From Olivibacter sp. XZL3 (GTDB taxonomy: Bacteria; Bacteroidota; Bacteroidia; Sphingobacteriales; Sphingobacteriaceae), in assembly GCF_004368405.1 (NCBI RefSeq), contig NZ_SBJH01000067.1, positions 186,001 through 250,000 on the forward strand: a stretch of DNA of 64,000 nucleotides, read 5' to 3'. Positions within the stretch are counted from its first letter, which is position 1, and the number at the start of each line of letters is the position of its first letter. The notes beneath the pieces were generated by a model, which was not told where the DNA came from, did no database searches, and worked only from the letters and a program-made list of their open reading frames with translations. Both the position numbers and the translations under genes were made by a program. Positions 25,465 to 27,682 of this stretch are shown one piece after another.

Positions 25465-27018
25465 CTATTTCGCAAAGGAAACTGATCGAGTTTCCCGGAT
25501 AACAGTAACCTTAATCTGTCCTGGATAAGTCATTTCAGTTTGTATGCGGTTTGATATATCTGCCGCCAATATTTCAGCCTGTGCGTCCGTCACCTTTTCA
25601 CTTTCCACCACAACCCGTAACTCTCTACCCGCTTGAATTGCAAAGGTTTTCTCCACACCTGGATACGAAAGGGCCAGTTCTTCGAGCTCTTTAAGACGTT
25701 TGATATAACTTTCTACCACCTCTCTTCTAGCGCCGGGGCGGGCACCGGAAATAGCATCACAAGCCTGAACAATCGGAGATATGAGCGATGTCATTTCAAT
25801 TTCATCGTGGTGAGCACCAATGGCATTACATACTTCCGGATGTTCTTTGTATTTCTCGGCAAGCTGCATACCTAAAATAGCATGCGGTAACTCGGGATTA
25901 TCATCAGGCACCTTACCGATATCATGCAGCAAACCGGCACGTTTTGCAAGCTTTACATTTAAGCCCAACTCTGCGGCCATTGTTGCGCAGAAATTGGCTA
26001 CTTCGCGCGAGTGTTGCAGTAGATTTTGCCCGTAGGACGATCGGTAGCGCATTCTTCCTACCATGCGGATCAATTCGGGATGTAGACCATGAATACCCAG
26101 ATCAATGACCGTACGTTCGCCTATTTCGACAATCTCGTCTTCTATTTGTTTCTTCGTTTTAGCCACCACCTCCTCAATACGGGCCGGATGAATACGTCCG
26201 TCGGTAACCAGCCGATGTAATGCCAGTCGTGCTATCTCACGTCTAACCGGGTCGAAGCCCGATAAGATAATAGCTTCGGGCGTATCATCTACAATAATTT
26301 CAACGCCGGTAGCCGCTTCAAGTGCTCGGATATTCCGCCCTTCACGACCAATAACGCGTCCTTTAATTTCGTCATTCTCTATATTGAATATAGAAACTGT
26401 ATTTTCTATGGCACTCTCCGTGGCTGTTCTTTGGATAGTTTGGATAACCACCTTCTTTGCTTCTTTGCTGGCTGTAAGTTTAGCTTCATCGACAATATCC
26501 TTTATTTGGATCATTGCTTTTGAGCGCGCTTCTTCCCGCAAATTGTTCACCAGCTGCTCTTTTGCTTCTTCCGCTGACAGGCCCGCTATCGTTTCCAGTT
26601 GTTTGATGTGTTGCATTTTCAAATGCTCCACTTCGTCTTGTTTTTTGTTATTAAGCTCAATCTGACGTTCCAGGTTCTTTTTGATATTATCCAGTTCCTG
26701 CTTCTCGCGATTAACCTGCTCTAATTTGGAATTAAGTGATTGTTCTTTCTGGCGGAGCGAGTTCTCCTTTTGGTTAATCGTATTATTTTTTTGGTTAACT
26801 TCACGTTCATGTTCGGCTTTTAAGTGTAGAAATTTTTCCTTCGCTTCCAACAAACGATTTTTCTTTAGCATTTCTGCTTCTTGTTCAGCCTCTTTTAGGA
26901 TACGTTTAACCTTATTCTGCGCTGCAATTTCTTGCTTCTTAAGTAGGCTACGAAGTAAAAAGCGTCCGATTAATACGCCGATAGCCAAACCTAATAACAC
27001 ATAAATTACTATTTCCAT
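25465..27018 (-). CDS. rny: Ribonuclease Y
   Basis: A membrane-anchored endoribonuclease of 517 residues involved in mRNA decay. Residues 1-24 form the membrane helix ([18 protein letters not shown] start). Residues about 30-200 are coiled coil rich in Lys, Glu and Gln. A KH domain follows ([15 protein letters not shown] near residues 220-235), then an HD domain with HDIGKVPDD that gives metal-dependent cleavage. C-terminal segments such as RELRVVVES complete the family length. It sits downstream of zapA with a 337-base non-coding spacer that contains the 6S-like RNA and a leader hairpin. Confidence 0.96.
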
Positions 27019-27045
27019 GTTGTTTATATATATATTTAGTTGATA

Positions 27046-27080
27046 CTAGAATCGGGAGATAACGTCATCTCCGCTTCTAG
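27046..27080 (-). promoter_or_regulatory. Hairpin in the rny leader
   Basis: CTAGAA (27046-27051) pairs with TTCTAG (27075-27080), and GGAGAT (27055-27060) pairs with ATCTCC (27067-27072), around a short loop. The structure ends about 27 bases before the rny start codon. It could protect the leader, or serve as an autoregulatory cleavage site for the nuclease. The function is inference. Confidence 0.5.
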
Positions 27081-27151
27081 AACCCATAATTGCTCCAAAC
27101 CATCCTCTAGCTCGCATCTCTTCTTTACAAAGAAAGTCCTAAAGGTTTACG

Positions 27152-27322
27152 CAAAAAAAAACCGCAGTCAAAAATAGGTTTCAATTATTTTAAACTTCTA
27201 TATACAGGCTTAGCGTACTAACTGTCTCCAGATGGCAAAAGCAAAATGGAGTATGTCTATTTACGCTTCTTTATATTGAAGTGTTAAGTTTAAAAATAGT
27301 GAAACCCGAATGAACTGCGGTT
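27152..27322 (-). ncRNA. ssrS: Probable 6S RNA between zapA and rny
   Basis: Reading leftward, the region folds into one long rod. The outer stem AACCGCAGT / ACTGCGGTT (27314-27322 with 27160-27168) is followed by nine T residues, as in an intrinsic terminator. Going inward: an 8-bp stem (27300-27307 with 27176-27183, one G-U), a 10-bp stem (27286-27295 with 27188-27197), then a large open bubble (18 and 14 bases), a 6-bp stem AGCGTA / TACGCT (27262-27267 with 27212-27217) and an apical stem CTCCA / TGGAG. Closing stem, central bubble and terminal stem-loop over about 170 nt are the hallmark of 6S RNA. The neighbourhood of zapA is also typical of 6S genes in other bacteria. I see no strong promoter; it may be processed from the zapA transcript. 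Confidence 0.72.
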
Positions 27323-27355
27323 ATTCTTTATAGCTCTATATTTCAAAAGAACGAA

Positions 27356-27646
27356 TCAATCCTTAAAAAACTCCGATAGCAATTGATCTAACTGGTAAAC
27401 CTTATCAGATACGCTTGTATCCTCATCCCTTACCCGCTTTTCTGCCTTCAAAGCTGCAGTAGCATAATGCAATACAGCCATTGAAAGCAAATCTTGCTTA
27501 TCCCTTACCGCATAATTCTCTTGTAGATCTTTAATACGGTCGTTAATTAATTTCGCTGCATGACGGATAATCTCTTCTTCCTCCATCTCTATCCGTAAAG
27601 GATATATCCGATCTGCAATATTTATTTTTATGGAAATATCTCCCAT
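27356..27646 (-). CDS. zapA: Cell division protein ZapA
   Basis: A small FtsZ-associated protein of 96 residues that promotes Z-ring bundling. The start is the ATG at 27646 (MGDISIKINIADRIYPLRI), which gives the standard N-terminal beta strands of ZapA; a start at 27664 would add six residues. A long C-terminal helix follows: EEEIIRHAAKLINDRIKDLQE, then AVRDKQDLLSMAVLHYA (ZapA family motif). It lies 36 bases downstream of a coiled-coil gene and 337 bases upstream of rny, in a leftward pheT - coiled coil - zapA - rny series. Confidence 0.92.
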   Translation of the reverse strand: MGDISIKINIADRIYPLRIEMEEEEIIRHAAKLINDRIKDLQENYAVRDKQDLLSMAVLHYATAALKAEKRVRDEDTSVSDKVYQLDQLLSEFFKD

Positions 27647-27682
27647 AGAATGAGCTTGATTCACTATATAACCTGGGTTACT

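Follow-up and report, generated by a model that had tools for sequence, protein, structure and literature searches.

A probable 6S RNA gene between zapA and rny in Olivibacter sp. XZL3, orthologous to 6S-Flavo and out of reach of the Rfam model

Background

The window analysed here is a stretch of 64,000 nucleotides from Olivibacter sp. XZL3 (contig NZ_SBJH01000067.1, positions 186,001 to 250,000). Within it a gap of 337 bases (27019-27355) separates zapA (27356-27664, minus strand) from rny (25465-27018, minus strand), as a first-pass annotation had stated and the gene coordinates bear out. The same annotation proposed that the minus strand of this gap encodes a 6S-like RNA. Does it, and if so, how is this RNA related to 6S-Flavo, the 6S RNA of other Bacteroidota? 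6S RNA is thought to restrain RNA polymerase as growth slows. A survey of 6S RNAs by Wehner et al. in 2014 may already include candidates from Sphingobacteriaceae. Characterised 6S RNAs mimic an open promoter, sequester the polymerase and are released via product-RNA synthesis (PMC8876501, PMC8414754). A 6S RNA with product RNAs was reported in B. thetaiotaomicron (PMC7366714), and a 6S RNA was reported as expressed in F. psychrophilum (PMC9723704). The Rfam family RF01685 (6S-Flavo) was created because Bacteroidota 6S RNAs escape the general model RF00013 (PMC2864571). We find that the spacer very probably holds the 6S RNA gene of this Sphingobacteriaceae bacterium, orthologous to 6S-Flavo, transcribed toward rny and ending at a U-run. 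The kind of RNA is already known, and this member lies out of the Rfam model's reach.

Locus and fold of the RNA

The RNA and its two neighbouring genes are co-directional, all on the minus strand:

27356-27664, minus: zapA, the upstream neighbour, adjoining the RNA in 30 of 30 loci checked
27154-27323, minus: probable 6S RNA (6S-Flavo type) of about 170 nt, assigned from its fold, from covariation and from a full-length match of 163 bits to R1, a covariance model built from this family (Sphingobacteriaceae) alone, whose training set included this very sequence
25465-27018, minus: rny (RNase Y), the downstream neighbour

R1 found a single locus in the genome itself; the match on the plus strand there mirrors the rod. 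The RNA was assigned to the minus strand because the U-run was found on that strand only. No ORF of at least 20 amino acids lies within the RNA on the minus strand. A sigma-70-type scan, which is unsuited to Bacteroidota, found no promoter.

Folding of the minus strand of 27152-27322 gave -48.1 kcal/mol, against -26.5 +/- 3.5 kcal/mol in 200 dinucleotide shuffles, none of which was as good (z -6.26).

Two further elements of the spacer were observed. Right behind the zapA stop codon (27325-27355, minus), a GTTCTTT followed by AGAGC is conserved, and GUUCU/AGAGC may form a small hairpin. RF01685 loci have the GTTCTTT as well. Its spacing from the stem of the RNA ranges from 26 to 41 nt, which is too variable for a -33 box, and that reading was rejected. 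Between the 6S terminator and rny there is a hairpin at 27045-27085, minus strand (UUCUAGAAGCGGAGAU...AUCUCCCGAUUCUAG); its bases are changed and its fold is similar in four genomes of the genus, and it was not seen in a fifth (L005).

Conservation and covariation across Sphingobacteriaceae

The spacer DNA matched 31 of 100 genomes searched, namely its own and 30 others, all of the same family. Most of these matches are confined to the RNA and what precedes it, and leave out the last 110 bases before rny. In all 30 loci fetched, zapA and rny flank the RNA on the same strand. The distance from the terminator to rny ranges from about 10 to more than 200 nt. Of 61 genomes of the family, 41 were matched strongly by R1 (88-179 bits) and four weakly. 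When 84,980 genomes were scanned for an exact pattern, the matches listed included Pedobacter, Mucilaginibacter, Parapedobacter, Arcticibacter, Olivibacter and Desertivirga, as well as Bacteroidota bins.

A structure of 38 pairs was scored on an alignment (A2) of 31 distinct sequences, and 92.7% of its cells (one pair in one sequence) were found to be standard pairs. Two-sided changes occur in 17 of the 38 pairs, in 81 cells compared with 28.7 in shuffles, and none of 500 shuffles reached this number. When the partner strand was slid, pairing fell to 35-46%; the structure was drawn partly from the same 31 sequences, which favours it in this slide control and does not explain the two-sided changes. 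The parts of the RNA, all on the minus strand, are:

27314-27321, minus: closing stem P1, 5′ strand; pairs with 27161-27168, 97% of cells paired, three pairs with two-sided changes
27161-27168, minus: closing stem P1, 3′ strand; covariation
27153-27160, minus: U-run after the closing stem, the intrinsic terminator of the RNA; seen in the sequence, with a U-run in all 31 relatives
27301-27308, minus: stem P2, 5′ strand; pairs with 27175-27182, 92% paired, three pairs with two-sided changes
27175-27182, minus: stem P2, 3′ strand; covariation
27286-27298, minus: stem P3, 5′ strand, UAUU (27295-27298) and AAACUU (27286-27291); 98-100% paired
27186-27197, minus: stem P3, 3′ strand, AAGUUU (27192-27197) and AAUA (27186-27189); covariation
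27268-27285, minus: central bubble, 5′ strand, AACACUUCAAUAUAAAGA; conserved sequence with no conserved partner, presumed product-RNA template region
27198-27211, minus: central bubble, 3′ strand; variable, no consistent pairing
27263-27267, minus: distal stem P4, 5′ strand; pairs with 27212-27216, three pairs with two-sided changes
27212-27216, minus: distal stem P4, 3′ strand; covariation
27226-27251, minus: apical hairpin; 27247-27251 with 27226-27230, and GC at 27241-27242 with 27235-27236

The middle pair of P4 is C-G in 12 of the 31 sequences, A-U in 10 and G-C in four, and in the outer part of the apical hairpin four of five pairs have two-sided changes. The rod drawn in the first-pass annotation is thus upheld by its folding energy and by the comparison of the 31 sequences, and the compensatory changes that it suggested looking for in zapA-rny spacers are abundant. 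Its 18/14 bubble, 8-bp stem, U-run and apical hairpin stand as described; the closing stem is reduced from 9 bp to eight conserved pairs, the 10-bp stem is made of 4 + 6 bp, and the distal stem has 5 bp and not 6.

Central bubble

The minimum-energy fold pairs bases within the bubble. This pairing was rejected as it is not kept across relatives: such pairs are found in only 67% of cells. The open bubble is taken as the consensus because these pairs are not conserved. A helix between the two bubble strands was likewise rejected, the best one scoring 10.1 against 9.7 +/- 0.26 in partner shuffles, 15 of 300 of which scored as high. AACRCUUCAAUAU of the 5′ bubble strand is nearly invariant in the 31 sequences and the opposite strand varies. 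The comparison therefore points to a central bubble that is probably open and has a conserved 5′ strand. It lies between a closing stem (helices 1-4) and a loop-capped apical arm (helices 5-7), the other two features expected of a 6S RNA.

Rfam models

With Rfam release 15 at gathering scores, no match was found in the window. At E 10 over 701 bases around the RNA, and at E 1 in 11 relatives, no 6S match appeared. RF00013 had no match in the genome itself at E <= 1, while the same search found its matches in E. coli, B. subtilis and four other control genomes. RF01685, a model of 108 positions with a gathering cut-off of 85 bits, did not match the window either, and the best score in the family was 34.2 bits. 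The search with RF00013 and RF01685 that the first-pass annotation proposed therefore failed for both models. It had counted the lack of a covariance-model hit, together with a lack of pairing-preserving substitutions, against the 6S reading; the Rfam hit is indeed lacking, but the substitutions are plentiful.

Bona fide zapA-rny loci of the Flavobacteriaceae type also score below 85 bits, and the RF01685 cut-off is thus narrower than the family. With the model in its present form, the RNA would fall outside RF01685; our claim is orthology with RF01685 members. The 6S-Flavo model misses the 6S RNA across the whole family, including Pedobacter, Mucilaginibacter, Parapedobacter, Olivibacter and others, and the alignment from this family offers a means to mend the gap.

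Relationship to 6S-Flavo and other 6S RNAs

A search of 120 relatives with RF01685 gave sub-threshold matches only. Among the 10 matches listed, five sit in a zapA-rny spacer, namely the four best (G081 at 49.3 bits, G072, G069 and G105) and number six in rank, G040 at 26.7 bits; the other five are located elsewhere and look like chance. G105 and G040 belong to the same family as Olivibacter, and their matches sit on the RNA described here. Over 247 genomes of the phylum, all 12 RF01685 matches above the cut-off lie between zapA and rny. At E <= 0.01 there were 30 matches, 29 of them in this spacer.

The reverse search gave the same picture. Outside the family, RF01685 marks 31 loci in the zapA-rny spacer. 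R1 recovered 29 of these at E <= 0.01, with 26.6-40.4 bits, and one more at E 0.09, each end to end and on the same strand, and it found none of six RF01685 matches located elsewhere. In 198 genomes of the phylum its only hits outside the family were G241 and G292, both RF01685 loci. A 9-base core, AAACUYAAC, whose AAACUU stands in the 5′ strand of P3 here, was found in 30 of 31 spacers of the family and in 29 of 31 at RF01685 loci. From shuffled spacers, core plus 3′ partner would be expected in 0.02-0.06 spacers per set. The same core is present in spacers from L240, L249, L253 and L259, which belong to further families.

Both the orthologous locus and the homologous sequence and structure thus place the RNA with 6S-Flavo. 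The first-pass annotation held that such membership could not be shown from sequence alone; Rfam is silent, yet the locus and the R1 matches do show it. The two RNAs are alike in zapA-rny locus, strand, rod, U-run terminator and reciprocal model matches (RF01685; Weinberg et al. 2010, PMC2864571), and in the AAACUYAAC 5′ core with its GAGUUU/AAGUUU partner. They differ in the sequences of closing stem and arm, and the core reads AAACUU here and AAACUC in 6S-Flavo.

6S-like RNAs below the RF01685 cut-off were also seen in the zapA-rny spacers of other Bacteroidota families (L240, L249, L252, L253, L256, L259), several with closing stems like CCCGCAU...AUGCGGG.

Canonical 6S RNA (RF00013; E. coli ssrS, B. 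subtilis 6S-1) is similar in size and shares the closing stem, the bubble with a conserved 5′ strand and the apical arm with small internal loops. Unlike it, the RNA here has no RF00013 match, and no hairpin was seen opposite the 5′ bubble strand. In E. coli K-12, ssrS follows zapA directly, 41 nt downstream on the same strand, in agreement with the earlier remark that 6S genes neighbour zapA in other bacteria. This shared order suggests an old linkage. Covariation, locus, reciprocal model matches and the E. coli gene order all support the proposal of a 6S-like RNA.

Putative mechanism

By analogy with characterised 6S RNAs, the rod would mimic an open promoter and bind RNA polymerase carrying the housekeeping sigma factor when growth slows. 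The polymerase would then copy a short product RNA off the 5′ bubble strand (AACRCUUC), and the RNA would be released. Release may involve a predicted switch: a GAAG that is otherwise paired in P3 would be captured by CUUC of the bubble. CUUC and the ACUU of P3 compete for this one GAAG, and the alternative helix is possible in 98% of the alignment cells, in columns that barely vary, so that covariation says little on it. With an assumed product-RNA site blocked, 17 of 31 folds contained this helix. The predicted switch resembles the collapse helix of Bacillus 6S-1.

Alternative explanations

The RNA is co-directional with rny, lies upstream of it and ends in an intrinsic terminator. It might instead act in cis on rny as a leader or attenuator. 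A structured 5′ region of this sort would stop transcription coming from zapA before it enters rny and thereby control RNase Y, and some lineages of the family with eroded spacers (see below) retain only a terminator-like hairpin there. However, the distance from the terminator to rny varies widely, the unpaired conserved bubble core is common to 6S-Flavo, and a plain terminator has no need of a covarying apical arm. We consider this explanation very improbable.

Descent from 6S RNA with a change of role, for example binding of another protein or of core polymerase, is a similarly improbable alternative. The Ms1 RNA of actinobacteria has a 6S-like shape (PMC9130861) but binds core polymerase and belongs to another phylum. 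Such a change would accord with the missing Rfam match, with the putative nature of polymerase binding here and with the loss of the bubble in some lineages, but Sphingobacteriaceae and the RF01685 families have retained the bubble core, both arms and the locus, and the B. thetaiotaomicron 6S RNA was reported with product RNAs (PMC7366714). AT-rich spacers often have inverted repeats, and a functionless chance repeat or decayed mobile element could be imagined; against the z of -6.26, the covariation observed across relatives and the conservation at a single locus over many genera, it is vanishingly improbable. A 6S RNA orthologous to 6S-Flavo is the reading that we adopt.

Erosion within the family

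Where R1 has no strong match in a genome of the family, the zapA-rny spacer in most cases contains a shortened hairpin of 79-150 nt. These eroded hairpins (L220-L237, in spacers upstream of rny) keep the outer stem and the U-run and have lost the bubble core; the spacer of L233 shows no such RNA. On an RNase Y tree the eroded spacers appear at about six positions, and outgroups and sister genera have intact RNAs. We lean slightly towards repeated loss of the 6S RNA in this one family, with either 6S control abandoned more than once or another role taken on by the short hairpins; a diverged 6S gene elsewhere in the genomes of these lineages may have escaped R1. Because several lineages have lost the core, the RNA is not indispensable in the group. 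The repeated erosion offers natural knock-outs in which the need for 6S RNA can be studied.
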